This document shows positions 10,097 to 50,718 of a stretch of DNA of 64,000 nt, piece by piece (position 1 is the first letter of the stretch; each line of letters begins with the position of its first letter). Made by a program: the position numbers and the translations under genes. Source of the stretch: Haliscomenobacter hydrossis DSM 1100. GTDB taxonomy: Bacteria > Bacteroidota > Bacteroidia > Chitinophagales > Saprospiraceae. The notes below the pieces were generated by a model, which saw nothing but the letters and a program-made list of their open reading frames with translations, searched no databases and was not told the origin of the DNA. The stretch lies in NCBI RefSeq assembly GCF_000212735.1, contig NC_015510.1, forward strand, positions 5,333,001 to 5,397,000. Direction: 5' to 3'.

Positions 10097-10256
10097 AAGT
10101 GCTGGAACCTTATTAATCGACAGAATTCAACACAGGGATTTTGGATTTCAGCGACTTATTTTTGAGGAGCAATGCAGCGCATTGTAACGAAAAAATGAGG
10201 AAGTTGAAATTCGAAAGATCAAGTTGAAAATGTTGATTAATAAGGTTCCAGCACTT
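10097..10256. mobile_element. 160-bp palindromic element, type A copy 1 (MITE-like)
   Basis: Ends are inverted repeats of about 25 bp with one mismatch, starting AAGTGCTGGAACCTTATTAA. The inner arms also pair (TTCAAC, ATTTCA, ATTTTT blocks), and the exact centre is CAATGC-AGC-GCATTG. A second copy of the same length is at 34535. There is no room for a transposase. Together with flanks it fills the gap 9708-10286, which otherwise holds only the ATCGA array. Confidence 0.85.
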
Positions 10257-10286
10257 ACCCCCCTATTTCATCAAATAATTTCATTC

Positions 10287-10667
10287 ATGGAGCATCGGAG
10301 TCATTCGATTTCTACCTTAGCTGGTTTGGCTGGCGTACTTGCCTATCTTACGCCTATCGGTTGGGTTTTGGCCTTTATCATTCATTTGCTGCGCAAAGAA
10401 GAATATACCGCTTTTCACTTGCGTCAGGCGGGTGGCATTTACGGTACCTTGGCCGTGCTGTTTTTTTTGAGCAGAATTCCTTTTTTGGGCTGGTTGATGT
10501 GGTTGTTTGGCTTGATTCTCTGCTTTTTTTTGTGGGTAGTCGGCTTTATGGGGGCGGTACAGAGCAAACGAACCATCATACCCTACCTGGGCCCATATTT
10601 TCAGCGCTGGTTCAACATCAGTAGGCTGATCGCCCTGTTTCCGGGCAGACGTGCGGCTGAGGATTAA
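10287..10667 (+). CDS. Small membrane protein, DUF4870-like
   Basis: From ATG 10287 the protein has 126 residues. A longer frame from 10224 would take its first residues from the 160-bp element, so I reject it. STLAGLAGVLAYLTPIGWVLAFIIHLL, then EEYTAFHLRQAGGIYGTLAVLFFL and two more hydrophobic segments resemble DUF4870-type proteins, in which a short HxRQ motif precedes the second membrane helix. The function is unknown. Confidence 0.7.
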   Translation: MEHRSHSISTLAGLAGVLAYLTPIGWVLAFIIHLLRKEEYTAFHLRQAGGIYGTLAVLFFLSRIPFLGWLMWLFGLILCFFLWVVGFMGAVQSKRTIIPYLGPYFQRWFNISRLIALFPGRRAAED

Positions 10668-10696
10668 CATCAACCATCACCTGGGTTGTACAGTCG

Positions 10697-11422
10697 TTAC
10701 AACAATTCACTTATTTCTCGAATGACATAACCGGCCATGTGCAAGCCAAATAGGGCGGGGAGATAAGAAATAGTACCATAATACGATTTTTTAAAAGCAC
10801 TGCCCTCGGTAAGTTGCAGGGAATTTGGCATGACCAACTCGGTGGAAAAAACCACGGGAAATCCCTTGTTGATCCCTTTGATGCGCAAAAACTTGCGTAC
10901 TTGTTGTGCAAAGGGGCAATTGTAGGTGCTGAATACATCATCAACCTTTACTTTAGCCGGATCAACTCGCCCACCAGCGCCCATTGAGCTGATAAAATTC
11001 ACCTCGGCAGCCAGACAATCGGCCAAAAGACTGATTTTGGGTTGAAAACTGTCAATACAGTCCAGAACATAATCAAATCCACCCCGCACGAGTTGGGCCA
11101 TATAATCCGGCTGTTGAAAGGTTTGTATCACCGTAAGTTGTAGCTCCGGATTGATGTCGAGCATCCGCTGGGCCATTACTTCTGCCTTGGGCATACCCAC
11201 CGTGGAATCCAGTGCAGGCAACTGCCGGTTTTTATTGCTGACATCCACCACGTCACCATCTACAATGGTCATGCTTCCTATGCCTGCCCGACACAAAAAT
11301 TCCGCAGCAAAGCTGCCTACGCCACCTAAACCAACCACCAACACATTGGCCTGGCGCAATAGTTCGATCTTTTCGCTTCCGATCAGCAGTTCGGTTCTGA
11401 CCAACCAGTTGTTTGTACTCAT
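10697..11422 (-). CDS. tcdA: tRNA threonylcarbamoyladenosine dehydratase (TcdA/CsdL, ThiF family)
   Basis: The ATG at 11422 (MSTNNWLVRTELLIG) gives 241 residues; the longer frame to 11458 reads through repeat DNA. LVVGLGGVGSFAAEFLCRAGIG is the ATP-binding Rossmann motif, IVDGDVVDVSNKNRQ and YVLDCIDSFQPK are typical of E1-like adenylating enzymes, and the Cys in STYNCPF and the end fit TcdA, which cyclises t6A37 in tRNA. It is the third gene of a run upp-tatD-tcdA read leftwards with gaps of 23 and 36 bp. Confidence 0.9.
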   Translation of the reverse strand: MSTNNWLVRTELLIGSEKIELLRQANVLVVGLGGVGSFAAEFLCRAGIGSMTIVDGDVVDVSNKNRQLPALDSTVGMPKAEVMAQRMLDINPELQLTVIQTFQQPDYMAQLVRGGFDYVLDCIDSFQPKISLLADCLAAEVNFISSMGAGGRVDPAKVKVDDVFSTYNCPFAQQVRKFLRIKGINKGFPVVFSTELVMPNSLQLTEGSAFKKSYYGTISYLPALFGLHMAGYVIREISELL

Positions 11423-11438
11423 TCTTTTATTCCGCTTA

Positions 11439-11476
11439 GTAGTGGGCAAAATGAACATTTATTTTTTTATCGCCCC
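11439..11476. repeat. Solo end of a GGGCAAAA repeat element
   Basis: The last 35 bases match the right end of the element at 56771-56888 with small indels, sharing GGCAAAATGAA and TTATTTTTTTATCGCCC. It contains the tatD stop codon (11459-11461) and the last codons, and lies between tatD and tcdA. Confidence 0.7.
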
Positions 11477-12127
11477 TAGCTGTTCCCAATTGGATTGTAT
11501 TGCTGCCTCCAGGGCTGCAAAAGTAAGCCCTTTGATTTGGGCAGCACGGGTGTAAAGGTCTGCAATTGGCAGGACTTTATCATCGGTTTCGAGGAAAAGT
11601 TGGTCAAGTGGCGTTTGAGCCAGACTTTGAGCCGCCCCACTGTTGGGTGCTAAAATTGCCGCACCGAAGGAAATGAAAAACCCCTGTTTGATCAATGGTT
11701 CTAGTACACTGGGTTTGCGGGCAAAACCGTGGATGACGAGTGGAATGGAAGGTTGGAGTTTTTTGATTATGCTAAGTAATTCTGCATAGGCGCGCACACA
11801 ATGGATGACCAGGGGCTTGCGCAAGGTTTCGGCCAATTGCATACAATATTCAAAGACAAAAGTTTGGTTAATCAGATCGGGACCCTGGAGTTTATCCAGG
11901 CCACATTCCCCGATGAACAGCACTTTTTCATCCTGAGCAACCCGAGACAGCCAGTTCAACTGCTCATCGCGTATCCCTTCTACTGCGGATACAAAACAGG
12001 GGTGTAAACCCACGGAGCAGGGGGCTTTCCATTCCGCAAATAGCGCTTGTTCCTTTTGGTGAAAAGAACGAATACTCAAGGTATCTGGCGCTGAAAACTG
12101 ATGATGGTTGTGAAAATCGATCAACAA
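11459..12127 (-). CDS. TatD family metal-dependent hydrolase
   Basis: The 222-residue protein has the TatD/amidohydrolase layout: DFHNHH metal ligands at the N-terminus, LFIGECGLDKLQG (Glu ligand), PLVIHCVRAYAELL (His ligand), VIHGFARKP and LETDDKV near the C-terminus. Family members are 3'-5' nucleases. No ATG is available, and the frame begins at TTG 12127 (LIDFH), so the start is uncertain by a codon or two. The final codons (GAIKK and stop) lie within a dispersed repeat end, suggesting that the native C-terminus was replaced or trimmed. Confidence 0.85.
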   Translation of the reverse strand: MLIDFHNHHQFSAPDTLSIRSFHQKEQALFAEWKAPCSVGLHPCFVSAVEGIRDEQLNWLSRVAQDEKVLFIGECGLDKLQGPDLINQTFVFEYCMQLAETLRKPLVIHCVRAYAELLSIIKKLQPSIPLVIHGFARKPSVLEPLIKQGFFISFGAAILAPNSGAAQSLAQTPLDQLFLETDDKVLPIADLYTRAAQIKGLTFAALEAAIQSNWEQLGAIKK

Positions 12128-12150
12128 AATAGGGTGTGAGTTAGGGTGTG

Positions 12151-12810
12151 CTAGTACTGCGTCTTTTCCCCATACGCCAAATCCCCGGCATCTCCCAATC
12201 CGGGCACAATGTAAGACTTGGCGGTCAACTCCTCATCTACGGCACCCATCCAAATCCCGGCTTTGGGGTACATTCTGCGTACGTATTCCAAACCTGGCGA
12301 AGCTGCAATGGCCGTCACAAAATGGATTTCGGCAGGGGTGCCTTGTTCCATAAGTTGTTTAGCGGCAATGACCATCGAGGCACCCGTAGCCATCATGGGA
12401 TCAGCAATGATCAAAATTTTTCCATCCAGATTAGGACAAGACAAATACTCGAGCTTGATCTCAAACGTACCATCCTTGTGGTGCTTGCGGTAGGCCGAAA
12501 CAAATGCATTTTCAGCTCCGTCAAAATAATTCAACAATCCCTGATGAAGAGGTAAACCCGCCCGCAGAATGGTAGCCAACACAATGGGTTTTGACACGGC
12601 CTTGCTGTGGGCAATGCCTAATGGTGTTTCCACTTCAATGGAATTGTAGGGCAAGTGTTTGCTCAACTCATAAGCCAGTATTTCTCCCAGTCGCTCCATA
12701 TTGCGCCGGAAGCGCATCCGATCGTTTTGTACATTTACGTTGCGCATTTCGGCTACAAAATGGCTCGCAATACTTGGATTCTTGCTCAGGTCAACTATCA
12801 ATGGAGACAT
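12151..12810 (-). CDS. upp: Uracil phosphoribosyltransferase
   Basis: I choose ATG 12810 (219 aa), since MSPLIVDLSKNPSIASHFVAEMRN lines up with the usual Bacteroidota N-terminus; an upstream ATG at 12867 would add 19 residues. DRMRFRRNMERLGEILAYE, VLATILRAGLPLHQGLL and the PRPP loop ILIIADPMMATGASM identify the enzyme, which salvages uracil to UMP with PRPP. GAVDEELTAKSYIVPGLGDAGDLAYG is the uracil-binding C-terminal part. It leads a co-directional run with tatD and tcdA. Confidence 0.95.
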   Translation of the reverse strand: MSPLIVDLSKNPSIASHFVAEMRNVNVQNDRMRFRRNMERLGEILAYELSKHLPYNSIEVETPLGIAHSKAVSKPIVLATILRAGLPLHQGLLNYFDGAENAFVSAYRKHHKDGTFEIKLEYLSCPNLDGKILIIADPMMATGASMVIAAKQLMEQGTPAEIHFVTAIAASPGLEYVRRMYPKAGIWMGAVDEELTAKSYIVPGLGDAGDLAYGEKTQY

Positions 12811-12930
12811 GGATATATCTTTTAACTCATTCCAAAGCAAGATAAGACCTTTTCCATTAATCTCCATACCAACATTTATCAGTGCTGAAGCTGATCTTGG
12901 TTGTAGAATTAAAAAAATTAATGAAGTGGA

Positions 12931-14883
12931 TTATCGACCACTCCACCATTTTTTCAATTCTTCCAATTTGGCTTCACGGGATTGTAAATCGATCAGCATG
13001 CGGTTGCTGTTTGATCCAGACTTTTCCAAAAAAGGTTTAGCCCGTACGAAGGCATCCTGGGCTTTCTGGATACGGGAGAGGGCTTCGGGTTTGTCTTTTA
13101 CGCTGAGAGATGGGTTTTTGACCAGTTTTTCATGCAATTTGAACGCGACCTGGGCCTGGTAGGCACCAATTTGAATATTGGCCAAACCTCCTCCGGCATT
13201 CAGAAATTGCATCACGGTTTGTCGTTCGGATTTGTTGGGGCTAGTACTGAGAATTTTGAGGCCCTCCACCGCACGGCGTTCAGCATCGCGGTAACCTTCC
13301 AGTGCGGTACTGAAATTGCTTTCTAAAAAAGGCAAGGGATTGTCAAAAACCATACGGTAGCGCAGGCTTACCAGGTCATGGCGGGTAAGGCTTTCGTTGG
13401 CCAACAACTTGGCCATGAGCAGGGGGTAGTCCTTGCGCATTTCGTTGATGCCTTCCGATTCGGAAAACCCCGCTGAGGCATCTATGCTTTGTTTCATGGA
13501 TAAAAGAGCGTTTTTGCCACGGACAATGGCGGCTAAATTGGCAGCCAGGGATTCTTCCCCCAAACTGCTCCGATTGGCACTGCCATTGAGGTGGCTAATG
13601 GTATTGAGGTAAAAACAACGGGCGAGGAAAAAAACGATTTCGGCGCGTTTTTTCTGGATGGCTTCCTCGGTACTTTGCGCATACAAATTCAAGGCTTGTT
13701 GATAACTATTGGTAGCTCGTTCACATTCCAGTTGGATGCGGCGCAACGTGGCTTGTACATTGGACTGGCTGAGGTTGTTGAGGTTTTCACGACTATATCG
13801 ACTCAATTGGGTGTAATGGACATGCCCACGGACAAAAATGAGTTCAGCTTGCAGGTATTTGAGGGGTTGCATTTGCTGTTGAATGATTTGAAGTCGTTCA
13901 TTTTTTACGGCGTGCAAATAAGTCCAGGAGCGTGCAAAATATTGTTCAACCAATTGTAATTGCTGAAAATAGCGTACCGTGTCCATCTGAGCCCGAGGGC
14001 TGCTTTCGAGGGAAAAGAGATGTTGATAAATTTCGACCATGGACACCAGGCCCTGTTCGTACATTTTTAATCCCAATTGGGTAAGTGCAAAATCGTCATT
14101 GGGGTTGAAACGGAGGATACGAGCACAAGTATTGAGGGTGCGTTGAAGGGTATCCAGCAGGTTCATGTGCATGATGGTATCCGCGTAAAAAAAGGGCAAG
14201 GTACTGGTGCTTTGAGGAGCGGGTGAAAGCAAATCCCAGGTTTCCCACTGTGCTTGCGTCATGGGATACCGGTTGAGTTGCCAAACCGGGTCGTAAGGGT
14301 AATGATCGCGGATCATGGTTGCCGAGGCTACCAAAAAATACAAATCGTCACTGGGAGGGAAATGAATCTCTGCTTCCGGGTCGTAGTAACCTGCACCCCA
14401 GGTAGGGTCGCTCAAAGACCATTCACCGGCCAGGCGAATGGCAATCCAGGCGTGACCTATTTCGGGAATCACACCATCTTCCCGGCGTACTTTACCTGTG
14501 ACAATTTCAGCGCTTAAACCCATCAGGTTGGCCAGGGATTTGTACAAATTGGCATACCCTTCACATACCGCATTGCGCTGCGCCAAGACATTTTCAGGTT
14601 GTTGCATCAGGGTGTTTTCACGGGTACCCAACAGTTTTTGTTCAATGACGCTGTGGTTGTAGCGGATGTTGTGGGTAATCCAGGTATAAATAGAGCGGGC
14701 TTTATCGCGTTCGCTGAATTTCCCGTTGCCCTTGAGGTAGTTCGCCAGGGTATAGAGGCTTTGGCTGCTTTCATCGGGGGCATTTAACGCGTATTGATCT
14801 ACGGCGGTGTAGTCATTTGATTGTGCACTGGCCAGAAAAAAAACAATCAGTACAAAGCTAAGCGTGAAAATTTGTCGCAGCAT
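12931..14883 (-). CDS. Exported transglutaminase-domain protein
   Basis: From ATG 14883 the product has 650 residues with a signal peptide (MLRQIFTLSFVLIVFFLASAQ). The transglutaminase-like core lies at about 50-190: ARSIYTWITHNIRYN, RNAVCEGYANLYKSL (catalytic Cys), EIGHAWIAIRL (His) and WSLSDPTWGAGYYD (Asp). The remaining 450 residues are mostly helical and Gln-rich with no recognised domain. Such proteins are often proteases or peptide modifiers outside the cytoplasm; the role here is unknown. It is separated from upp by about 120 bp. Confidence 0.88.
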   Translation of the reverse strand: MLRQIFTLSFVLIVFFLASAQSNDYTAVDQYALNAPDESSQSLYTLANYLKGNGKFSERDKARSIYTWITHNIRYNHSVIEQKLLGTRENTLMQQPENVLAQRNAVCEGYANLYKSLANLMGLSAEIVTGKVRREDGVIPEIGHAWIAIRLAGEWSLSDPTWGAGYYDPEAEIHFPPSDDLYFLVASATMIRDHYPYDPVWQLNRYPMTQAQWETWDLLSPAPQSTSTLPFFYADTIMHMNLLDTLQRTLNTCARILRFNPNDDFALTQLGLKMYEQGLVSMVEIYQHLFSLESSPRAQMDTVRYFQQLQLVEQYFARSWTYLHAVKNERLQIIQQQMQPLKYLQAELIFVRGHVHYTQLSRYSRENLNNLSQSNVQATLRRIQLECERATNSYQQALNLYAQSTEEAIQKKRAEIVFFLARCFYLNTISHLNGSANRSSLGEESLAANLAAIVRGKNALLSMKQSIDASAGFSESEGINEMRKDYPLLMAKLLANESLTRHDLVSLRYRMVFDNPLPFLESNFSTALEGYRDAERRAVEGLKILSTSPNKSERQTVMQFLNAGGGLANIQIGAYQAQVAFKLHEKLVKNPSLSVKDKPEALSRIQKAQDAFVRAKPFLEKSGSNSNRMLIDLQSREAKLEELKKWWSGR

Positions 14884-15058
14884 GGGCAAGCAGTTTTGTG
14901 GAAAGATAACGAATTCTGCAGGCGGATTATTAGCAAGGTTTTTTGACAAATTGCTTACATTTGTAATTGCAGGTTCTTATTACAATTTGGCAATAATGTC
15001 GATTTTACAAAAGTTAATTGCCTTAAATATTTCCTTGTTCATCCCAAAAACCTGAACG

Positions 15059-15742
15059 ATGCGTATGCTGTCCATCTTCTTTTATGCAACAATGCTGCTG
15101 AATACAGCGGATGCTCCAATCAACAAAAACAAGATTGTTGGAAAAATAGCCATCCCCACCGAGGTGCCCCTGCTTAAACGGGGTAGCAATCAGAAGTACT
15201 GCGAAGAAGAGCCCGCCAGCCCGCGCAAAAAACAAATTGAGCAGGAGAATCATCCCAATCGACACGTGGTGGTGAGTTTTCATCCCCTCGATTTTAAAGC
15301 CCCCATTAGCCCAACTGCCAACGCCATCATGAACCAGATGGAAAAAACTTTTGTGCCCAAGGTATTGCCCGTCACCCAGGGCAGCACGGTGGAGTTTTTG
15401 AACAGCGATACCGAAGTACACAACATATTCAGCATGACCCCGCGGGCTACGTTCAACATTGGCCGTCGTCAGCCGGGGAAGGCTGTACCTCAATTGATTG
15501 AAAAACTGGGTTTGGTCGAATTGCGTTGCGACATCCATTGTGGCATGAATGCTTCCATTTTAAGCCTGGACACCCCGTTTTTTACCAAAGCAAACGCCAA
15601 CGGGAATTACGAAGTAGATGGTTTGCCGGATGGCAATTACAAAGTGCAGGTGTACCACTATAGCCTCGGTTTTGTTGAAGACAACATCACCGTGAAGGGT
15701 GGGGGAGTGGTCACCAAAAACCTCAACCTGGTTAAGCCATAG
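15059..15742 (+). CDS. Cupredoxin-like (plastocyanin/methylamine utilisation type) protein
   Basis: The 227-residue protein has a short hydrophobic N-terminus, then a cupredoxin domain (about 95-180) with copper ligands in TEVHNIFS (His) and ELRCDIHCGMNA (Cys, His, Met), so a type 1 copper site is plausible. The C-terminal about 50 residues (GNYEVDGLPDGNYKVQVYH) are a carboxypeptidase-regulatory-like beta domain. This fusion is common in Bacteroidota. It opens a co-directional run with a barrel protein, a histidine kinase and a response regulator (gaps 11, 20 and 1 bp). Confidence 0.8.
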   Translation: MRMLSIFFYATMLLNTADAPINKNKIVGKIAIPTEVPLLKRGSNQKYCEEEPASPRKKQIEQENHPNRHVVVSFHPLDFKAPISPTANAIMNQMEKTFVPKVLPVTQGSTVEFLNSDTEVHNIFSMTPRATFNIGRRQPGKAVPQLIEKLGLVELRCDIHCGMNASILSLDTPFFTKANANGNYEVDGLPDGNYKVQVYHYSLGFVEDNITVKGGGVVTKNLNLVKP

Positions 15743-15753
15743 CTGCTATCCGT

Positions 15754-16929
15754 ATGAATCGAAACACCTGTCTCGTCTTCCTTTTGGGGTTTTATGCGCT
15801 GGGCTTGTGGGGACAAGAAAAAACCCAAATCGAGCTCAATGGTACTGCGGATGTAGAATACCTGCGCGGTGGAAACAGTTCGCATTATTACCTCAATGGG
15901 GTACACAAAGATCTGAAAGCAGGGGCAGTGCGCCCTTTGGAGCTAAACCTGCTGGCCAAAATCCGCTTCAACCCCCAGTTGAGCGCTAATTTTCGCGTGC
16001 AAATGGAGCGGGACGAAGGCCTGAAATTTGATCAGGTACGCCTGGCCCAAGCCAATGTGCAGTGGAACCCGAAGGAAAGCCCCTGGCAGTTTACGGTAGG
16101 GCGTTTTGTGACACCTTTTGGCTTGTTCTCGAATTTGCAGCTGTCTACGGCGCGCACTTTTGTAGATGTGCCGCTGGCTTACGGCTATTTTGCAAACATC
16201 TCTGAACAGATCGGACAGGTTGATCGCTTGGGCAATGGCACCCAAATCCCCATCAATGGGCGCAATGAGTGGGGCATCCCATTGCTGTACTACAACGGCT
16301 ATGCCAATGGCTTGAAAACCCGTTGGAACTTTGCACCAGGAAAGGCCTCCTGGGAATTTGCGTTGACTACTGCTTCACCCAATTTGCCCAAAAACTTCCG
16401 CTTTGACCCCCTCAACTATGGCTTAATTACCCGCCTAAAATTGCAACCCAAATATTTCTGGAAACAAGGGTTTTCCTTCAGTCATGGCAAGTTTTTGCAG
16501 GCCGATCTGCTGAATGACAACTTAATGGATCGCAGTGGGTACAAACAGACGCTTCTGGGCACCGATTTTGTGTTGGGTTTCGGGCACTTCGAGTTATCGG
16601 GCGAGGCAATGGGGGCGTTTTACCGGGTGCCAAAATATTCCCCTTCAACCCAACAATATTCAGTCAACCAGAACTTTCAGGCATTTTCAGCCTGGGTAGA
16701 TGCCAAATATGAATTCCCTTTTTTGGTAGGCACTTATGCGGCCTGGCGGGTAGAAACCCTGCAGTTTAGTGGTACCTGGGATGAAGCAGTATTGCGCAAT
16801 TCCTTGGTCATCGGGGCCAAAATCAAAGATTTTATCCTGATCCGCAGCGCCTACGTTCTACAATCCATTCAAAACAGCAATGCCACAGGTTACAATGCCT
16901 GGAGAACTTCTTTGACTTTGTATTTTTAA
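15754..16929 (+). CDS. Outer membrane beta-barrel protein (porin-like)
   Basis: This 391-residue protein has a signal peptide (about 1-20, ending LGLWGQ) and alternating strands throughout: LNLLAKIRFNPQLSANFRVQMER, WQFTVGRFVTPFGLF, TRWNFAPGKASWEFALTT, ending in the aromatic TSLTLYF expected for outer membrane insertion. The pattern resembles phosphate/anion-selective porin-like barrels. Its place 11 bp after the cupredoxin gene suggests a shared task, perhaps copper or electron-acceptor handling at the envelope; this is inference. Confidence 0.78.
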   Translation: MNRNTCLVFLLGFYALGLWGQEKTQIELNGTADVEYLRGGNSSHYYLNGVHKDLKAGAVRPLELNLLAKIRFNPQLSANFRVQMERDEGLKFDQVRLAQANVQWNPKESPWQFTVGRFVTPFGLFSNLQLSTARTFVDVPLAYGYFANISEQIGQVDRLGNGTQIPINGRNEWGIPLLYYNGYANGLKTRWNFAPGKASWEFALTTASPNLPKNFRFDPLNYGLITRLKLQPKYFWKQGFSFSHGKFLQADLLNDNLMDRSGYKQTLLGTDFVLGFGHFELSGEAMGAFYRVPKYSPSTQQYSVNQNFQAFSAWVDAKYEFPFLVGTYAAWRVETLQFSGTWDEAVLRNSLVIGAKIKDFILIRSAYVLQSIQNSNATGYNAWRTSLTLYF

Positions 16930-16949
16930 TCAAATCCACTATTTCAGCG

Positions 16950-19235: not shown

Positions 19236-19236
19236 C

Positions 19237-19902: not shown

Positions 19903-19949
19903 GGGAAGTAGGATGATTGGGATGGCTAAGTGTATGTTTTAAAGTGGAA

Positions 19950-20333: not shown

Positions 20334-20485
20334 AAGAGTGGAGGCAGTGATGGAGGCGGTGGGAACTTAAAAGAGGGCCTGAAAAAAGTGGTTGCCTTCA
20401 TAAAACATCTTGCATACTTTTGCGTCTATAAAGCCATTAGGTAGAAAACTAATAATTAGTTAATTTAAATTATTAACACACTTGT

Positions 20486-21665: not shown

Positions 21666-21670
21666 GTACT

Positions 21671-28575: not shown

Positions 28576-28950
28576 TCAACTAAAGCCAATGTACACTTCT
28601 CCGTCGGTTACCTTCACGGGGTACACGGCAATGGTGCCGCAGTCTCCGTTCAGGTTTTCACCCGTCAAGAGGGAAAAAGTGCGTTTGTGCATGGGGCAGG
28701 CCACTTTGGGTTCCCCTTTTTCGTCGCCGATCAGGCCCCGCGAGAGCACCATTTCCATGCGGTGGGGGCACAAATTCTGGCAGGCATACCAGCGGCCCTG
28801 GGCCGTAAAGTGGAAGACCGCAATTTGTTTGTCCTGGTATTTGACACAGGCACCCGCATTATCGGGAAAGTCATGTATTGGCCCTGCTTTGAACCAGATT
28901 TTGACTTCGGACTCCACTACGGGAGTGTATTTGGAAAGTAAGGTTTGCAT
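28576..28950 (-). CDS. nirD: Nitrite reductase (NADH) small subunit, Rieske protein
   Basis: From ATG 28950 the protein has 124 residues. An upstream extension in frame consists only of Pro/Asn/Arg-Thr repeats read from the hairpin DNA and is rejected. The Rieske-type [2Fe-2S] ligands are in NLCPHRMEMVLSRG and VACPMHKRTFSLLTG. NirD is the small subunit of the cytoplasmic assimilatory NADH-nitrite reductase. It follows nirB after 203 bp that are almost wholly a GGTTCG hairpin. Confidence 0.93.
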   Translation of the reverse strand: MQTLLSKYTPVVESEVKIWFKAGPIHDFPDNAGACVKYQDKQIAVFHFTAQGRWYACQNLCPHRMEMVLSRGLIGDEKGEPKVACPMHKRTFSLLTGENLNGDCGTIAVYPVKVTDGEVYIGFS

Positions 28951-28958
28951 AATTGGAA

Positions 28959-29153
28959 GGTTTGAGGGTTCGGGGGTTTGAGGGTTCGGGGGTTCGAGGG
29001 TTCGGGGGTTCGGGGGTTCGAGGGTTCGGGAGTTCGGGGGTTCGTAGTTCGAGGGTTCGGGAGTTCGGGGGTTTGGGGGAAAGCTCAAGAGCGGAGGACC
29101 AACCCTCGAACCCCCGAACTACGAACCCCCGAACCCTGGAACCCCCGAACCCT
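28959..29153. repeat. GGTTCGGG/GGTTCGAG-word hairpin between nirB and nirD
   Basis: About fifteen 8-base words (GGTTCGGG, GGTTCGAG and variants) run from 28959 to about 29081; after a 20-base loop, inverted words (CCCCGAACC type) run from 29101 to about 29155. The element fills the intercistronic space, ends 8 bp from the nirD start and touches the nirB stop. It is the longest of four related copies. Confidence 0.9.
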
Positions 29154-34534: not shown

Positions 34535-34694
34535 AAGTGCTGGAACTTTGTTAATCGACAGAATTCAACGCCGAGATTTTGGATTTCAGCGACTTATTTT
34601 TGAAGCGCAATGCAGCGCATTGTAATGAAAAAATAAGGAAGATGAAATTCAAAAGATCAAGTTGAAAATGTCGATTAATAAGGTTCCAGCACTT
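34535..34694. mobile_element. 160-bp palindromic element, type A copy 2 (MITE-like)
   Basis: It has the same length as, and strong identity along its whole length with, the copy at 10097. The terminal AAGTGCTGGAAC repeats, the central CAATGC-AGC-GCATTG and inner arms are retained, with scattered differences. Its right end supplies two bases of the DUF898 stop codon. Confidence 0.88.
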
Positions 34695-38082: not shown

Positions 38083-38085
38083 CCG

Positions 38086-42154: not shown

Positions 42155-42163
42155 TAAAGATAA

Positions 42164-42246
42164 TTTCACCACGGATTTCACAGATTTACACAGATTTTAT
42201 GGGCATGACGAAAAATCTGTGTAAATCTGTGAAATCCGTGGTGAAA
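42164..42246. repeat. Perfect 35-bp inverted repeat (CACGGATTTCACAG type)
   Basis: The arm 42164-42198 (TTTCACCACGGATTTCACAG and onward) is perfectly mirrored at 42212-42246 with a 13-base loop. It stands between two convergent genes and could terminate both. Confidence 0.92.
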
Positions 42247-42277
42247 AAAAATCCGCCACAGGCAGGGTGCTAAACGT

Positions 42278-43267: not shown

Positions 43268-43419
43268 TTAAGGGGTTTTGATGTAAAACTGCCATGGCAC
43301 GCCTTAAAGTTCCAAAAACTTAACACTCCTAACCGATAAAAATAATTTGAGAAGTTTTAAAAACCCTTATTTTGCTGCTCAAATTCAAACGATTTTATCA
43401 TCTTTTTGAAAAAACCATT

Positions 43420-43773
43420 ATGAAATTGCTTCTCTGCACTTTTTCTTTATTGTTCTTTATTGCCATTGGTTCTACCCATGCGCAATCTGCTCCTGCTGCG
43501 GTTCCAGTACTGGATACGGTAGCGGCAAAAGTTTTTTTGGGCAAATACGATACGGGCGGCATGGGTACCATCGTCGTTACTTTGGAACAAGGTAAACTGA
43601 TTGGTTCTTTGGAAGGCCAGGGTAGTGCTCCACTCGTTCCTACTTCCACTCCGGATGTATTTAACATCGAAGGGTTTGATGGCACCGCAACCTTCATTCG
43701 TGATGAAAGTAAAAAAGTAATCAAAGTCAAATTAGCCGTAGAAGACCAGACCATTGAAGGTACTAAATTGTGA
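43420..43773 (+). CDS. Small exported DUF3471-like beta protein
   Basis: ATG 43420 gives 117 residues with a signal peptide (1-21, ending STHAQS). The mature part (FLGKYDTGGMGTIVVTLEQGKLIGSLEGQGSAPLVPTSTPDVFNIEGFDGTATFIRD) has alternating strands like the DUF3471/lipocalin-like domain often attached to beta-lactamase-type proteins, here standing alone. A strong terminator follows. Function is unknown. Confidence 0.72.
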   Translation: MKLLLCTFSLLFFIAIGSTHAQSAPAAVPVLDTVAAKVFLGKYDTGGMGTIVVTLEQGKLIGSLEGQGSAPLVPTSTPDVFNIEGFDGTATFIRDESKKVIKVKLAVEDQTIEGTKL

Positions 43774-43793
43774 TATCGGAGTCACGCAATTAA

Positions 43794-43836
43794 AAAAATG
43801 GGCTGTTGATTCTTTTGCGATCAATAGCCCATTTTT
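43794..43836 (+). terminator. Strong hairpin terminator
   Basis: AAAAATGGGCTGTTGAT and ATCAATAGCCCATTTTT pair in 16 of 17 positions around a 9-base loop and end in T residues. It closes the 43420 gene and lies before the promoter of the decarboxylase gene. Confidence 0.88.
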
Positions 43837-43855
43837 GATTATGGCAAGATTCGGG

Positions 43856-43886
43856 TTGGAAAGCAAATCCCAGCCTGGTATCTTTG
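43856..43886 (+). promoter_or_regulatory. Decarboxylase promoter
   Basis: TTG (43856-43858), 20 bases and TATCTTTG (43879-43886). It decides for ATG 43904 and against the longer frame from 43754. Confidence 0.7.
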
Positions 43887-43903
43887 AAAAAAGTAACACC
43901 AAC

Positions 43904-45427
43904 ATGCAAGGAACGAATTGGGAGCAATTAGAAGTTCAAGTGGGTCAAAACCTGACTTTAGACCCCACCGACTGGAGCCAAATGCGGGAACTCGGTCACC
44001 AGATGATCGACGATGTCATGGATTACCTCGAAAACATTGGCGAACAACCCGTTTGGAAACCCATTCCCGAAGAGGTGAAAAGCTTCCTCTCCCAAGATAT
44101 TCCTCAAGAGCCTCAAGACATCGAAGCCATTTATCAGGAATTCAAACAACATATTTTCCCCTATACCAAAGGCAATATCCACCCCCGGTTTTTTGCCTGG
44201 GTACAAGGTACGGGTACTCCCCTCGGTGTGTTGGCCGACCTGCTGGCTGCCACCATGAATCCCAACGTGACCATTGGTGAGCACGCCGCGCTGTACGTAG
44301 ATCAACAAGTGGTCAACTGGTGCAAACAAATGTTGAACTACCCTGCCGAGGCATCGGGTATTTTGCTGAGCGGAGGCTCCATGGCCAACATCACCGCCCT
44401 GACCGTAGCCCGCAACCATCAATTGCAAAAGAACATCCGCAAAGAAGGGTTGTACCAAAACGGCGCACAACTGACCTTGTATTGCTCTGCCGAAACCCAC
44501 AGCTGCATCCAAAAGGCGGTCGAAATACTGGGCCTGGGTGGCGACGCGGTGCGGAAAATCTCGGTCAATGAGCGTTACGAAATCAATGTAGACGAATTGG
44601 TCAATACCATCGAAGCGGACCTGGCGCAAGGCCACCAACCTTTCTGTATCGTCGGTAGCGCCGGAACCGTCAACACCGGAGCCATTGATCCAATGGACGA
44701 ACTCTTGGCCATTTGCCAGCGCTACCAATTGTGGTTTCACGTCGATGGTGCTTACGGAGCTTTGGCCAAATTGGACCCTCAATACACCTCCGCACTAAAA
44801 GGAATCGAACAGGCCGACAGCGTGGCTTTTGATTTGCACAAATGGCTGTACGTGCCCTATGAAGTGGGTTGTACCCTCATCAAAAATGCCGAAGCCCACC
44901 GCAGCGCTTTTGCCATCACGCCCAATTATCTTTTGCAAGAAAAACGTGGACTGGCCGGAGGCCTGGAATCCATCAACAACTACGGTTTCGAATTGTCGCG
45001 GGGATTTAAAGCGCTCAAAATCTGGATGTCGATCAAAGAACATGGCCTGGCCAAATACGCCGCCATGATCCAGCAGAATAACCTGCAAGCTGCTTATTTG
45101 GGGCAATTGGTGGAAAATGCACCGGAATTGGAACTGCTGGCTCCAGTGTCTTTGAGCATTGTTTGTTACCGCTACGTGCATCCCGCCTTGTCGGGACTGG
45201 AACTCAATGCCCTGAACCGGGAAATCCTGATTCAATTGCAGGAACAAGGCATTGCTTCACCTTCCTCCACGCTGTTGCAAGGGCGGTACGCCATTCGGGT
45301 ATGCATTGTCAATCAGCGCACCAAAAAATCCGACCTGGAGTTGTTGATACAAGCTACCTTGCAAATTGGAAGTGAGCAAGTAGCTTTATTATTACCTCGC
45401 ATTACGCATTTTTTTACTGCAGAGTAA
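43904..45427 (+). CDS. PLP-dependent group II amino acid decarboxylase
   Basis: ATG 43904 gives 507 residues. GNIHPRFFAWVQGTGTPLGVLADLLAATMN, ILLSGGSMANITAL, ETHSCIQKAVEILGLGGDAVRKI, HVDGAYGALAKL and the PLP-binding Lys in VAFDLHKWLYVPYEVGC identify the aromatic-amino-acid/glutamate/histidine decarboxylase family. The substrate cannot be fixed by eye. The last residues (HFFTAE and stop) are encoded by the arm of a dispersed repeat, so the natural C-terminus may have been replaced. Confidence 0.88.
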   Translation: MQGTNWEQLEVQVGQNLTLDPTDWSQMRELGHQMIDDVMDYLENIGEQPVWKPIPEEVKSFLSQDIPQEPQDIEAIYQEFKQHIFPYTKGNIHPRFFAWVQGTGTPLGVLADLLAATMNPNVTIGEHAALYVDQQVVNWCKQMLNYPAEASGILLSGGSMANITALTVARNHQLQKNIRKEGLYQNGAQLTLYCSAETHSCIQKAVEILGLGGDAVRKISVNERYEINVDELVNTIEADLAQGHQPFCIVGSAGTVNTGAIDPMDELLAICQRYQLWFHVDGAYGALAKLDPQYTSALKGIEQADSVAFDLHKWLYVPYEVGCTLIKNAEAHRSAFAITPNYLLQEKRGLAGGLESINNYGFELSRGFKALKIWMSIKEHGLAKYAAMIQQNNLQAAYLGQLVENAPELELLAPVSLSIVCYRYVHPALSGLELNALNREILIQLQEQGIASPSSTLLQGRYAIRVCIVNQRTKKSDLELLIQATLQIGSEQVALLLPRITHFFTAE

Positions 45428-45665
45428 AGGAGTACACGCGGAGTTCCGCAGAGTTTTAGTTTTAAGGAGTTTGCCACCTGCGGTGGCTGGAGTTCGGGCT
45501 CCAGGAAGATCTTGCTGAAGATCAAGTCAAGGATAATGGCATGCTAACGGGTAACGGACCAAACTTCAGCAATAGCGACCTCCTAGGCCTCTGTGCACCG
45601 CAGGTGCCCCTAAAAAACTCCGCGAAACTCCGCGTGTACTCCTTTACTCTGCGGTAAAAAAATGC
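45406..45665. repeat. 260-bp element with 52-bp GCGGAGTT-type inverted ends
   Basis: The left arm 45406-45457 (GCATTTTTTTACTGCAGAGT and onward) is mirrored at 45614-45665 with few mismatches. The interior has small hairpins (CCACCTGCGGTGG at 45475, GCACCGCAGGTGC at 45595). The left arm carries the decarboxylase stop codon (45425-45427). No gene is seen between 45428 and 45698. Confidence 0.85.
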
Positions 45666-45698
45666 ATGTGAGGGATTAACACTCAAAACCTTTTCGGT

Positions 45699-46823
45699 AT
45701 GAAAACCATGCAACTCGTTTTAGCCCTTTTGTTCAGCCAAATGACCATTGCTGTACATGCCCAGACACCCAAACCCCTCCGCGTAGGGGTAATCGGACTG
45801 GTACACGACCATGTCAACTGGATTTTGAACCGAGCCAAAGCCAACGACATCGAAATTGTCGGCATCGTAGAACCCAACCGCGCTTTGGTGCAGCGTTATG
45901 CCAAAAAGCCGGGGTTTGATGTCAATTTGGTGTACAGCACCATCGAAGAAATGGTGGAAAAAACCAAACCTGAAGCGGTTACGGCCTTCAATTCCATCTA
46001 CGACCACCTCAGCACCGTGGAGTATTGTGCGCCACGAGGGATTCATGTGATGGTAGAAAAACCACTCGCCGCAAACTGGAAACACGCCCAGCGCATGATC
46101 GAGCTGGCACAAAAATACCAGATTCAACTCTTGACCAACTTTGAAACCACCTGGTACGGCAGCAATGCCAAAGCCTATGAACTGATTCACCAGGACAACA
46201 GAATTGGGCCGATCCGCAAAATGGTGTTCCATCATGGTCACCCTGGGCCCATCGAGATTGGTTGTAGCGCCGAGTTTTTGGCATTTTTGACCGACCCGGT
46301 ATTGAATGGCGGCGGTGCTTTGACCGATTTTGGTTGTTACGGCGCAAATTTGGCCACCTGGTTGCTCAAAGGCGAAACGCCTAAAAGTGTGTTTTGCAGT
46401 CTGCGCCACATCAAGCCCAACTTGTACCCGAAAGTGGACGACGAGGCCACCATCGTACTGGAATATGCCAATACCCAAGTCATCATCCAGGCTTCCTGGA
46501 ATTGGCCCTATGGCCGCAAAGACCTGGAAATATACGGCCAAAACGGGATCATTGAATGTCTCAATGGCAAAGATATGCTGGTAGGCCCCAAACTGGAAGA
46601 CCGGGGCAAACCACTCGTAGCGGAGGCTCTGCCCCCTGGGCTGAACGACCCTTTTGCGTACCTGGAAGGGGTAATACGAGGACGGATAAAAATTCAGTCT
46701 TTTGACTTATCCGCACTGGACAACAACCGCATTGTGGTGCAAATTCTGGAAGCGGCCAAACATTCGGCGGCGACGGGGAAGGTCGTGGAGTGGGGGAAGT
46801 TTTTTGGGAAAAAGGGGAATTGA
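45699..46823 (+). CDS. Gfo/Idh/MocA family oxidoreductase, exported
   Basis: The 374-residue protein has a signal peptide (about 1-22, ending AVHAQ), then an NAD(P)-binding domain (LRVGVIGLVHDHVNWILNRA, DIEIVGIVEPN, AVTAFNSIYDHLSTVEYCAPRGIHVMVEKPLA with the family EKP motif) and the C-terminal substrate domain (GGGALTDFGCYGANLATWLL). Such enzymes oxidise or reduce sugars; periplasmic forms are common in Bacteroidota. The substrate is unknown. It is convergent with a glycoside hydrolase-like gene. Confidence 0.88.
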   Translation: MKTMQLVLALLFSQMTIAVHAQTPKPLRVGVIGLVHDHVNWILNRAKANDIEIVGIVEPNRALVQRYAKKPGFDVNLVYSTIEEMVEKTKPEAVTAFNSIYDHLSTVEYCAPRGIHVMVEKPLAANWKHAQRMIELAQKYQIQLLTNFETTWYGSNAKAYELIHQDNRIGPIRKMVFHHGHPGPIEIGCSAEFLAFLTDPVLNGGGALTDFGCYGANLATWLLKGETPKSVFCSLRHIKPNLYPKVDDEATIVLEYANTQVIIQASWNWPYGRKDLEIYGQNGIIECLNGKDMLVGPKLEDRGKPLVAEALPPGLNDPFAYLEGVIRGRIKIQSFDLSALDNNRIVVQILEAAKHSAATGKVVEWGKFFGKKGN

Positions 46824-46883
46824 AAGGATTGGTCACTATGGAAATGGACAGACACTATTTAGAAATCATGCGCTTACGCTATT

Positions 46884-47936
46884 TTACCAATGTTGTTCAA
46901 AACTGCGTTTTTCCAATAGCCCATTGGTCATATCGAGTACAATGGCAGCGGTTCCCTCGTCGTTTCCACTGCCAATGCCAATGTTGTCATATGGATGCAT
47001 CAAGGCTTGATAGGCCGGATAAAACCCGTAAGAACCCACCATTAGTAAAGTTTTCTTCAGCAAATAACTGGCGTTTTCTACGAATCCATAGCGAATCAGC
47101 CCTGCGTACATCAGTCGATTGAGCAAAGGGGAAACCGCCAATGAAGGATCCATTTCCCCGGTCTTCTCTTGCGGAATTTGAGTGGGTAGTGCCCAATAAT
47201 CTTCCCGGAAAAAACCTTTGACCAGGCTGCGACCCAGGCGTTCGGCTTGTTCTTGATCGGGCACTCCAGCCCACATCGGTAAATAGTTGGACAAATATAG
47301 ACCGGGCAAATGTTTGGCTTGCACGACATCGTATGGGCGATAAGTATGGGTTCGGTCATCCCATAGGTCTTCATTTAAACCAAATACGGTCAATTCTTGC
47401 CATTCAAGCAGGGTTGAAAGGTCTTTGCCCAAGGCTTCGCCTAAGTCAGCCAAACACTCATTGGCGCGGCAAAACAAAGCCAAAAAGCCGGGATCTTGGA
47501 CTTGAAAACTATGGGCACCATAAACCGACCGCAAGCTTTTCGGCCACAGACTTTCTTCCGCAAAATGAATACAGGGAAGCCCCAATTCACGAGGATCGCG
47601 TTGCTCATACCAATAAGCATGTGTTTTCAGGAGTGCATCGAAACAGGCTTCGATGCGAGCGGTGTCTGGATTTTTTTTCCACCAATACCAGGCCAGAATG
47701 CTGTGGAATGGCGGTGTGCTGGCTTGTGGATGTTGTACATTAGGGATACTGCCCTGCTCGGTCTGGCTGGCCAATGTTTGTTGCAACCAATCCCAGGCCT
47801 CGGTATAATCGGTGTAAGTATGCCCCAATCCCAGTGCATACTGCTCCATTGCTGAAGTGCAGTGTTGTAATCCCCCCGCAGCAGACTGCACAATTTGCAG
47901 CGCTGCTTGAGCCAATGATGTTGTTTTAGCTACCAA
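46884..47936 (-). CDS. MGH1/GH63-like glycoside hydrolase domain protein
   Basis: The 350-residue protein resembles the alpha/alpha-barrel of MGH1-like, GH63 or trehalase-like enzymes: WDWLQQTLASQ, ILAWYWWKKNPD, LNEDLWDDRTHTYRPYDV, GLYLSNYLPMWAGVPD, VKGFFREDYWALPTQIP and GYVENASYLL-like repeats near the end, finishing with GTAAIVLDMTNGLLE. No signal peptide is seen, so it is probably cytoplasmic. Acidic catalytic residues cannot be assigned with certainty. Confidence 0.65.
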   Translation of the reverse strand: MVAKTTSLAQAALQIVQSAAGGLQHCTSAMEQYALGLGHTYTDYTEAWDWLQQTLASQTEQGSIPNVQHPQASTPPFHSILAWYWWKKNPDTARIEACFDALLKTHAYWYEQRDPRELGLPCIHFAEESLWPKSLRSVYGAHSFQVQDPGFLALFCRANECLADLGEALGKDLSTLLEWQELTVFGLNEDLWDDRTHTYRPYDVVQAKHLPGLYLSNYLPMWAGVPDQEQAERLGRSLVKGFFREDYWALPTQIPQEKTGEMDPSLAVSPLLNRLMYAGLIRYGFVENASYLLKKTLLMVGSYGFYPAYQALMHPYDNIGIGSGNDEGTAAIVLDMTNGLLEKRSFEQHW

Positions 47937-47965
47937 GTTGTCTAGTGTTTCCGAATGAGTCTAAA

Positions 47966-48125
47966 GACTTGTTGCAACGGGAGCGCTTGAGATCAAAAAT
48001 AAGGGATTTTTTTCCTGATTGAGGCTTATTTTTGAGTGCGTAGCAGCGCTACGGACGAGCAAATAAACGAAAAGCAGGGAAAAAAGACCATTTTTGAGCC
48101 AAGCAGTCTCTCGTTGCAACAAGTC
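47966..48125. mobile_element. 160-bp palindromic element, type B
   Basis: Ends GACTTGTTGCAACG are inverted at 48112-48125. Inner blocks TCAAAAAT, TTTTTTCC and TTATTT pair with their inverses, and the centre is CGTAGC-AGC-GCTACG. Length (160) and centre match type A although the arms are unrelated. The gap 47937-48307 otherwise holds nothing recognised. Confidence 0.82.
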
Positions 48126-48307
48126 TAATGTATTGGGCTGTAGATTCCCGGGAGGAGGGACGACAAAGCTACATATTCTATCCCGGGAAAGCTATATTCA
48201 GTTTAATTTTTTTTTCAGGTGTTATTTAATGCGGTTATTTAATATTGTTCTCGATTTGCTTTTTGTATCTTGAGAGCCTGTCTAAGCACCATATACACCT
48301 CTGCTTT

Positions 48308-48754
48308 ATGCATCGTCAAGGAATCATTGAATTGCTGCGCCGAACTTTCGATGGCGCCGCCTGGCACGGCCCATCAGTAATGGATACACTGCGCAAAGTG
48401 ACCATCGACCAATTGGGACAGCGAATTGTGGACAGTCATTCTCTGATTGAAATAGTAGAACACATGACCGCCTGGCGGCGTTTTGCCGTTGAAAAATTGC
48501 GGGGCAATACCACCTATGATGTAGATGCTGCAGCCAATTTCCCCAAAGTAGATCCCAACGAAGAAAGTTGGCTCATCACCCTCCAACAGTTTGAAGACAG
48601 CCAGCTCCAATTGCTCGAACAGTTGGAACAAACGGATGATTCCCGGTTAGAGCAGGTGGTTGAAGGACGCAATTATAGCTATTACGTGATGCTGCATGGT
48701 TTAATCCACCACGATGTGTATCATTTGGGGCAGATTGTGTTGTTGCGGAAGTGA
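48308..48754 (+). CDS. DinB family protein
   Basis: ATG 48308 gives 148 residues; the frame from 48245 adds an unlikely hydrophobic leader. The four-helix DinB pattern is clear, with metal-binding His in SLIEIVEHMTAWRRFA and in YVMLHGLIHHDVYHLGQIVLL. DinB proteins are metal-dependent enzymes, often thiol transferases that use mycothiol or bacillithiol; the presence of bshB1 in this window makes bacillithiol plausible, as inference only. Confidence 0.85.
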   Translation: MHRQGIIELLRRTFDGAAWHGPSVMDTLRKVTIDQLGQRIVDSHSLIEIVEHMTAWRRFAVEKLRGNTTYDVDAAANFPKVDPNEESWLITLQQFEDSQLQLLEQLEQTDDSRLEQVVEGRNYSYYVMLHGLIHHDVYHLGQIVLLRK

Positions 48755-48806
48755 GCCTCCTCTATCGAAGCACTAAGACCTCAATGCGTAGTCATCAATA
48801 AGCCTA

Positions 48807-49883
48807 TCAAACTTTAAGCGACACCTCCATGCCCAAAAACGCCCCAAACCCCTCAACTGCTTTTTCCATAACCTCTACAGGTAAGGTGTCTTTTTTGTCA
48901 AAAAAAGTCGGTTCAATTACGACCTTATTTTTTTGCACCGTGCGTTTCCAAATCCCTAGTACCAGACCATTCACGACAATGATCGGTTTAAAGATTCCAT
49001 TGCTGGTGATGGCTTCTTTGTGCCAGGTAGGGTCAAACACCGTGCTGCGGTATTTGTAGCTCACCGTGTATTCATCAAATGCAGGAAGGAAAAAAACGCT
49101 GGCGTTTTGCGGGGAGGCAGTGGTGCTTTTCTCCGTAAAAAAATATGTTTTGCCCTCCACAACCAAAGATTGTAACCCACTTTTGATACCCTCCAAACCC
49201 GCCCGCGCATCGGACATGGGCAAGCCCGACCACCACTGAAAATCCTGCACCGTAGCGGGTGCATGGCTGGTAAAATAACGTTCAGCCAAAGTGGCCAGGG
49301 CTTCTTCACGGGTAAGCACCAGACCGGGAGGGATTTTTTCATCCAACAAGGCGTAGGTTTGTTTTTTCCCCTGCATGATGCCATTGCAGACGATGGCATC
49401 AACTTCGGCATTCATCATAAAATGTACGGCGCGGCTTGAATTGGTGGGTACACCTCCCTTTTCCAGTTCGAGCATCACTTCTTCGCGGGTCAGGTTTTTA
49501 CCTCCTTCCAGCGCTTTGGCGATGAGGTCGTTGCAGCGGGTGTACAATGCCGAGTCGATACCCAGTTCCCGGTCCCTGGCCACCGAGAGCGCTTTGATGG
49601 ATTTGGCCGTTAAAGCGAGCATCCAGCGCACATCCTGTCCAGAAACCAAATGCCAGGTTGGTCGCAACACATGCGTACGCACAATTTCACCAGCGTCCAG
49701 CGCTGCTTCAATCCGGGTATCGCTTCTCCCCGGCAGACGTATGCCCACCGCCCATTTGGACATGGGGTAGTCCTGGGCTTGCATTGCACCCATATGCGCA
49801 ACCAGGGCCTGCGGACTACTTAAGTCCGGTTGGATGATTTTTTGGTTGTGGAGGCGGAGATGGGGAAAGTGGGTAGTTGGCAT
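48807..49883 (-). CDS. Winged-helix DNA glycosylase AlkZ-like (HTH_42)
   Basis: The 358-residue protein has the HTH_42/AlkZ layout: LRLHNQKIIQ, AHMGAMQAQDYPMSKWAVGIRL with the QxQ pair, RTHVLRPTWHLVSGQDVRWML, DFQWWSGLPMSDARAGLE, and a C-terminal part with FFLPAFDEYTVSYKYRS and GIFKPIIVVNGLVLGIWKR. Streptomyces AlkZ unhooks interstrand crosslinks made by azinomycin; substrates of other members vary and are not known here. Confidence 0.82.
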   Translation of the reverse strand: MPTTHFPHLRLHNQKIIQPDLSSPQALVAHMGAMQAQDYPMSKWAVGIRLPGRSDTRIEAALDAGEIVRTHVLRPTWHLVSGQDVRWMLALTAKSIKALSVARDRELGIDSALYTRCNDLIAKALEGGKNLTREEVMLELEKGGVPTNSSRAVHFMMNAEVDAIVCNGIMQGKKQTYALLDEKIPPGLVLTREEALATLAERYFTSHAPATVQDFQWWSGLPMSDARAGLEGIKSGLQSLVVEGKTYFFTEKSTTASPQNASVFFLPAFDEYTVSYKYRSTVFDPTWHKEAITSNGIFKPIIVVNGLVLGIWKRTVQKNKVVIEPTFFDKKDTLPVEVMEKAVEGFGAFLGMEVSLKV

Positions 49884-49984
49884 TAGGTGCTATTTGCTAC
49901 AAAGATAGAGCGTTTTTATTTTTGTTCACGCCGTTTTGCGCCTGCGGCGCTGCGAGAGAACAATTGCCAGAATTAGCCGATCAA

Positions 49985-50554
49985 CTACTTCCGCACCCCC
50001 TCCATCAAAATCCCCAAAATCTCATCCTCCAGCATTTTTGCCGTAATTTTTTTTCCGGGTTGGTACCAATCGTACAACCAGCGCACCGCTGAGAACAGTG
50101 TATACGACAAGATTAGGGGATTAACGGGTTTGAATTCACCCGCAGCAATGCCTTCGACAATAATCGCCTGGAAACGATTTTCGTAATTTTTGCGCAATTG
50201 CAAAAATGCCGAGAGGTGAGGTTCCTCCAGGTGCCGCCATTCGTCGTTGAATGCCGTGACCGAAGTAACATCTTCTATGGAAAGTTGAACGTGGAGGCGA
50301 ATTAAGCTGGAAATTTTTTCGGAAGCACTGCCCTCGTGGGCTTCTACTTCGTGCATGCCCGCTAAAAAGCGCTGGGCGTTGTTCATACAAATTTCGCGGA
50401 GCACATCCGCTTTGGAGGGAAAATGGTTGTAGAGGCTGGATGCCTGCAAACCTACTTCCTTAGCCAGATCGCGCATGGAGGTGGCCTGGTATCCCTTGTC
50501 GCGGAAGAGGCGCGCGGCAGCTTCGTAGATTTGATCTTTTTTTGATTTTTCCAC
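49985..50554 (-). CDS. TetR/AcrR family transcriptional regulator
   Basis: The 189-residue protein has a TetR helix-turn-helix at the N-terminus (KKDQIYEAAARLFRDKGYQATSMRDLAKEVGLQASSLYNHFPSKADVL) and a helical ligand domain. In the family the start motif, spacing and length are typical. Similar sequences regulate fatty-acid or acyl-CoA genes, but the ligand and target here are unknown. Its start is 6 bp from element C. Confidence 0.9.
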   Translation of the reverse strand: MEKSKKDQIYEAAARLFRDKGYQATSMRDLAKEVGLQASSLYNHFPSKADVLREICMNNAQRFLAGMHEVEAHEGSASEKISSLIRLHVQLSIEDVTSVTAFNDEWRHLEEPHLSAFLQLRKNYENRFQAIIVEGIAAGEFKPVNPLILSYTLFSAVRWLYDWYQPGKKITAKMLEDEILGILMEGVRK

Positions 50555-50559
50555 AGCTG

Positions 50560-50718
50560 AGAGCTTGTTTATTTTTTTGTTTTAGGCGAAAATGAGCTCG
50601 GTTTGAGGTGAATGAGGCACGAAAAGTGGAGTTTAGCAGCGCTAAATGAGCATTTTCGGAACGAAATTCACCTCAAGTCGGGCCATTTGGAGCAAAACAA
50701 AAAAAATCAATAAGCTCT
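50560..50718. mobile_element. 159-bp palindromic element, type C
   Basis: Ends AGAGCTTGTTTATTTTTTTG are mirrored on the right with two changes and a 1-base indel. Inner TTGAGGTGAAT, CGAAAA and AAATG blocks pair, and the centre at 50632-50646 is TTTAGC-AGC-GCTAAA. It lies between the TetR gene start and the rpsT 3' end. Confidence 0.8.

Follow-up and report, generated by a model that had tools for sequence, protein, structure and literature searches.

The region analysed here, a stretch of 64,000 nucleotides of the Haliscomenobacter hydrossis DSM 1100 chromosome (NC_015510.1, positions 5,333,001 to 5,397,000; referred to below as the window), carries four palindromic elements of 159 or 160 bp that belong to three classes, A, B and C (Table 1). 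Folding confirmed that each forms a hairpin over its whole length at the position and around the centre given for it in an original prediction made from the sequence, the predicted RNA hairpins having energies of -82.5, -78.1, -75.1 and -67.4 kcal/mol in coordinate order. We show that the body of these elements, which are scattered through many bacteria of the phylum Bacteroidota, is a conserved rod-like hairpin of the strand with AGC at its apex, whose helices covary, whose internal loops are asymmetric and rich in G-A, and whose length is near-constant throughout the phylum, and that the elements move as non-autonomous miniature inverted-repeat transposable elements (MITEs). In the second A copy, AGTGCTGG..CCAGCACT has TA at either side.

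Table 1. Family elements of the window, their cores, and the target duplication of the class C element.
Feature	Position	Strand	Description
Class A element, first copy	10097..10256	+	160 bp; AGC strand is +
Class A element, second copy	34535..34694	+	160 bp; 93% identity to first copy
Class B element	47966..48125	+	160 bp; termini AGACTTG..CAAGTCT at 47965-48126
Class C element	50560..50718	+	159 bp; with GAGC..GCTC termini, 50561-50717, 157 bp
TGA target duplication of class C element, left copy	50558..50560		
TGA target duplication of class C element, right copy	50718..50720		
Core of first A copy	10150..10203	+	left AGCGAC, apex GC-AGC-GC, right AACGAA..AGGAAG
Core of B copy	48018..48074	+	left TTGAGGC, apex GTAGC-AGC-GCTAC, right AAACGAAAAG
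Core of C copy	50612..50667	+	left TGAGGC, apex TTTAGC-AGC-GCTAAA, right GAACGAAA

The H. hydrossis genome comprises 8,771,651 bases on 4 contigs, of which the chromosome accounts for 8,371,686, in agreement with the published genome (PMC3156403). Whole-element DNA searches of this genome, with the best 40 candidates scored per query, found at least 23 matches to A and at least 49 each to B and C, partial copies and reverse-strand echoes being included in these counts. A first covariance model, built from 24 copies and searched at E<=1 with the best 150 of 3947 candidates scored, gave at least 111 matches, or 96 once 15 reverse-strand echoes were removed, the weakest of them doubtful. The copy number in H. 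hydrossis is thus about 90, as a lower bound. Length, apex and strand were counted on the 79 of the 96 matches that have a clear palindrome (score >=16 in our extension script), the other 17 being copies with apical insertions, damaged copies and weak matches. Most copies are dispersed singles, and 86 of 89 are intergenic by crude, greedy calls of open reading frames (ORFs). A hairpin scan (score>=24) covered 464 kb of genomic sequence, made up of the window and 20 stretches picked for partial matches and hence enriched; it found 49 hairpins there, versus none in 164 kb of sequence shuffled by a first-order Markov model.

The arms of A, B and C had been described as unrelated, a view that the alignment and its covariation rule out. 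MAFFT aligns A, B, C and their sub-types over 113 nt, that is, as one diverged family, which the original prediction had itself named as the outcome that would speak against it. RNAalifold predicts 25 pairs in this alignment, 22 of them with changes on both sides; 99.0% of the paired cells can pair, and the covariation score is 0.812, compared with 0.218 +/- 0.019 after shuffling (reached in 0 of 500 shuffles) and at most 0.294 when the alignment is slid by one to three columns. The same holds for 42 sequences from several genomes, where covariation is 0.794 versus 0.219 in shuffles (0/500) and at most 0.236 in slides, so that the helices covary against both controls as those of a structured RNA family do. 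Unpaired or non-canonically paired motifs are also common to the classes, GAGGC on the left and AACGAA on the right, which bring G·A beside A·G; among the 42 sequences, 23 have GAGGC and 7 have AAGGC as the left motif, and 18 have AACGAA as the right one, with variants otherwise. The ends of the element are less well conserved than the rest, and its asymmetric internal loops better than its apical loop. Two sub-types, C2 (L054) and C3 (L062), have a class C core with very different outer arms and the same length.

No match to Rfam 15 at the gathering score was found in the window, and at five other loci a search at E<=1 returned 12 matches, all below their gathering scores and at least half of them to microRNA-type families; a known Rfam family was therefore rejected as an identity for the element.

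The constant length noted in the window holds well outside it. In H. hydrossis the palindrome extends over 157-165 bp in 63 of the 79 elements, with one shorter (146 bp) and 15 longer, mostly where the palindrome continues into the flank. In named genomes, 112 matches to a core pattern were found, of which 6 lay too close to a sequence edge; among the 106 examined, 99 had termini that could be located, and all 99 measure 156-163 bp, 93 of them 159-162 bp. The search for these termini was limited to those with a terminal G and to lengths of about 143-181 bp, and it gave preference to flanking repeats. Elsewhere in the order, a single script found usable palindromes at 21 of 29 loci, 16 of 157-167 bp and five longer (169-204 bp), and none at the other 8; in the phylum sample, 12 of 18 loci have palindromes of 159-185 bp and 6 have none or a weak one.

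With the first model and the best 9 candidates scored per genome, matches at E<=0.001 occur in at least 80 of 396 genomes of the order, representing at least 40 of 164 genera. With a second model, built from the 42 sequences, and the best 11 candidates scored per genome, at least 8 of 395 genomes from across the phylum match at E<=1e-4. These are H. hydrossis itself, a further genome of its family, five genomes that belong to a second family of the class, and a single genome from elsewhere in the phylum. The exact C-type core pattern occurs in 110 stretches of named species genomes, and the 80 of these that were listed include Chitinophagales and Saprospiraceae metagenome-assembled genomes (MAGs), Lewinella sp. 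W8, a Phaeodactylibacter MAG and Snuella sedimenti, the last a member of the Flavobacteriaceae. Groups of two or three members lying within about 1 kb of one another occur in three other genomes, at L173, L179 and L160.

The centre is another matter. An AGC apex is indeed common, being present in 65 of the 79 H. hydrossis copies, but it is not fixed: of the 29 copies that were aligned from other genomes, 14 have it, and the remainder have a variable apex of 3 to 5 nt. The suggestion that an enzyme reads the centre is not supported, as the apical loop varies and the asymmetric internal loops are better kept. Versions of 180-195 bp also occur, in which an extra small hairpin has been added at the apex. 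The same small second hairpin, CCCGA..CGGGACAG, stands at the same apical place in seven H. hydrossis copies (180-bp versions) of all three classes, namely L006 and L008 (A), 6285282 and 6311344 (B), and 4463683, 8071503 and 6313350 (C), and may be either another form of the apex or a module that the classes exchange. Another apical insert, containing CGGTCCCTGAGCGGAGCCGAAG, is present in the class B copies 6036729 and 3129444 (L141, L142), and a palindrome similar to it lies in L066, near 11349.

Several lines of evidence set the two strands of the element apart. The AGC strand has a better RNA fold than its complement in 78 of 79 copies, with a class-average advantage of 11-21 kcal/mol, and under DNA folding parameters it is the better strand in 79 of 79; in other genomes the strand matched by the model folds better at 21 of 21 usable loci of the order and at 11 of 12 loci of the phylum sample. 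Deviations from pairing point the same way. Counted at positions paired in >=70% of a class, over 73 copies of A, B and C, they comprise 17 G·T, 3 A·C and 9 others in the inner body, and 3, 3 and 8 respectively in the outer arms; a manual count over a helix of 13 pairs in the 42 sequences gave 49 G·U versus 7 A·C cells. Because the AGC strand folds better and G·T exceeds A·C in the inner helix, the target of selection seems to be a single strand. The AGC strand is probably used in single-stranded form, most likely as RNA, which we favour over single-stranded DNA since G·U is so widely used.

The mobility of the elements escaped the original prediction, which passed over their target-site duplications, empty sites and termini resembling those of insertion sequences (ISs). 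The B and C copies of the window are missing at the matching sites of a congener, G286, the two sites that were tested. At the C site, taking the 157-bp element and one TGA out of the window leaves a 16-base junction equal in length to that of G286, with three substitutions; at the B site the alignment of the flanks stops about one base short of the element and resumes seven bases beyond it, G286 having two bases in between. A second congener, G164, gave partial flank matches only. Flanking repeats were sought in the H. hydrossis copies with three kinds of ends, another 15 copies having other ends. Among copies with GAG-type ends, 21 of 38 have an exact 3-bp flanking repeat (tta 13, taa 4, tca 2, tga 1, caa 1), 20 of the 21 being TNA; among those with AGACTT-type ends, with the terminus set one base outward, 13 of 20 do (aat 7, aac 2, and agt, act, att and atc 1 each), 10 of the 13 being ANT. 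Copies filed under GTGCTGG ends have a 2-bp repeat in 3 of 6 cases, one of them probably misfiled. In the named genomes, 58 of 99 elements have 3-bp repeats, 56 of them TNA, in a search that favoured repeats. The type of duplication thus tracks the termini, TNA with GAG..CTC and mostly ANT with AGACTT..AAGTCT. Since B and C are absent at the congener sites and many copies have 3-bp duplications, the elements move as MITEs, with which they share small size, terminal inverted repeats and many dispersed copies.

It is known that sub-groups of IS5 duplicate TNA, ANT or TA. The H. hydrossis genome has 18 PF01609 matches, which reduce to a few IS types, and PF13340 adds one degenerate copy. An IS of about 870 bp, in four identical copies, has ends beginning GAGTATGTTC, TAA or TTA on either side, and a PF01609/PF13340 transposase; class C ends resemble its ends (it was trimmed one base short in our comparison), and class A ends are nearest to those of another IS (L073). 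From these sequence likenesses we infer that several different DDE transposases of the IS5 kind act in trans on the outer terminal repeats of about 25 bp.

Seven deletion derivatives that retain both termini were found, of 55, 62, 65, 76, 77, 86 and 97 bp, no two of them equal, and half copies also occur. As each derivative has a different size and none has apparently been amplified, while copies of about 160 bp have been amplified in many lineages, these data suggest, for the candidates scored, that spread requires the complete body. The apex regions of four copies (L007, L016, L019 and L024) have turned symmetric, a pattern in their sequences that suggests fold-back, or arm-to-arm, correction. 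If such correction happens, lasting asymmetric loops need selection. Ends and arms are free to change, and length, pairing and certain unpaired motifs are fixed; the folded shape is therefore probably read by something.

The explanation that we favour, with a probability of roughly 0.6, is a superfamily of MITEs of fixed length, about 160 bp, in which the hairpin body is needed for the element's own spread and the ends are re-fitted to different transposases. The AGC strand would be produced as RNA, in single-stranded form, and its hairpin would be needed in cis for amplification, whether because a protein binds it, because it serves as an intermediate, or because it is an RNA favouring mobility or tolerance, with IS5-like enzymes acting in trans at the ends. 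Hairpin-templated correction would copy a change from one arm onto the other, which would account for the fast change of the helices, the internal loops resisting because they are selected. After alteration or capture of one terminus, the same correction could install a new terminal repeat at both ends together, and the element may thereby switch transposase and keep its body.

A number of observations weigh against this explanation. Hairpin-templated correction can by itself yield paired changes, and on A1 one of five covariation measures, that of further pair types, lies within the shuffles (61/500). The 79 copies are not independent, so that the strand result amounts to a handful of lineages and the other genomes, and one locus of the phylum sample (L197) folds slightly better as its complement. 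The AGC strand has no bias relative to neighbouring genes (20 same and 29 opposite in tandem settings, by greedy ORFs), and none relative to the replichores in a weak test that placed the origin at chromosome base 1, GC skew being irregular in the sampled stretches; use in host messages or as a lagging-strand hairpin accordingly gets no support. A Bacteroidota -7 promoter motif, TANNTTTG, is found in some classes in differing places and is not conserved across classes. As to mobility, an exact 3-bp repeat is missing from 17 of the 38 copies with GAG-type ends and from 7 of the 20 with AGACTT-type ends, and among the six IS types compared none has the ends of class B or class D; the best p for an IS end, 0.0025, is the floor of 400 shuffles and is uncorrected over 84 comparisons. 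The argument from deletion derivatives rests on the best 40 candidates scored per search.

Among other explanations, the one that survives best, although we think it unlikely, is that these are ordinary MITEs whose terminal repeats extend to the middle, the paired changes being quasi-palindrome correction and only the ends being under selection. The empty sites, target duplications and IS-like ends are all as it would have them, as are the correction events seen in single copies. It does not explain why length is near-constant across genomes despite different ends, why asymmetric unpaired motifs are retained while the helices turn over, or why conservation is lower at the ends and one strand is preferred. 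On this point the original prediction, which held that simple MITE decay does not give such a design, was sound in so far as length and a hairpin with varying paired arms hold across many genomes and one folded strand is apparently selected.

Less probable is a structured RNA useful to the host, such as a terminator, messenger RNA stabiliser, RNase III site or small RNA, that was spread by transposition and kept for regulation of its neighbours. The strong strand-specific RNA fold and the intergenic position of nearly all copies are in its favour, but host use would predict conservation of orientation or of site, and neither is seen: orientation is unbiased and both tested sites are empty in the congener.

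We consider quite improbable a system like REPIN/RAYT or IS200/IS605, in which a Y1 tyrosine transposase acts on a folded single-stranded hairpin. A REPIN-like working would fit a hairpin body with compensatory changes and a critical length, features described for REPINs (PMC3116915), and the H. hydrossis genome has seven Y1_Tnp matches. Mobilisation by Y1 or RAYT enzymes was set aside for the target duplications, which like the empty sites are unexpected for Y1 transposition; the absence of replichore bias, weakly tested, is a further point against it. As a separate observation, a class A copy (L002, 1990163-1990322) overlaps the end of a broken match resembling a Y1 transposase (L342, 1990306-1990605).

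The least probable explanation is genome stability, with internal loops that prevent cutting (of the SbcCD type) or deletion of a 160-bp palindrome and a length at the tolerated limit: long palindromes near 160 bp are unstable in E. coli, and deletion derivatives and half copies do occur, but any mismatch would serve, yet the G-A motifs recur across the phylum, and a preference for a single strand is not predicted.

Some further repeats were noted. One A copy of the genome directly adjoins a shortened B copy. Palindromes without the family core lie in the window at 8242-8331, 29006-29152 and 42164-42246, and the hairpin scan found many more in the sampled stretches of the genome. Arrays of an 8-bp unit resembling GGGTTCGG occur in the window at 28933-29095 and 61533-61600.

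The family we describe shares features with several known systems. MITEs of IS5-family ISs (IS1031, ISL2 and IS427 groups) are like it in their TNA or ANT duplications, and the likeness of class C termini to an IS of the same genome with a PF01609/PF13340 transposase is of the same kind. Classic MITEs have one source IS and its ends, whereas here one body of near-constant length has many different ends. RU-1 and RU-2 are palindromic, and we know of no swap of ends in them. In their description, RU-1 (127 bp, ERIC/IRU) and RU-2 (168 bp) are mobile intergenic repeats likened to MITEs (PMC2759123); by that description our elements resemble them in being short, fixed in size, mobile and intergenic, and differ in that RU-1 and RU-2 were described from enterobacteria. 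REPINs (REP doublets) are likewise miniature non-autonomous elements made of one hairpin, whose interior keeps its length and pairing through compensatory changes (PMC3116915). In REPINs, however, the REP ends are conserved, RAYTs are thought to move them and there is no target duplication, whereas here the ends are the most variable part, duplications of 3 bp are present and internal-loop motifs recur phylum-wide, so that the elements do not qualify as REPINs. Integron attC sites came into consideration solely because they too are hairpins; they are marked by cassette arrays with conserved R/L boxes near an integron integrase, and the H. hydrossis copies are mostly dispersed singles. Covarying helices and fixed internal loops recall the structured RNA families of Rfam 15, from which the lack of a gathering-score match in the window sets the elements apart. 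A review of prokaryotic MITEs makes general mention of transcripts with stable stem-loops (PMC10969869). The open-licence literature searched yielded no account of a covarying family that keeps its length and swaps its ends.

MITEs are usually viewed as dead ends and are defined by their ends. In the elements described here the ends change, and what persists throughout the phylum is a folded body whose length is fixed, so that the element, and not the transposase, looks like the stable lineage. More tentatively, the true unit of inheritance may be a phylum-wide selfish hairpin, RNA or single-stranded DNA, of a fixed 160 nt, a long-lived body whose ends are swapped to whichever DDE transposase is available, both arms being refitted through fold-back copying, and whose folded strand is required in cis. 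Our findings predict a factor that reads the hairpin, and they provide a concrete system for asking whether a folded single strand matters in DDE-type transposition.

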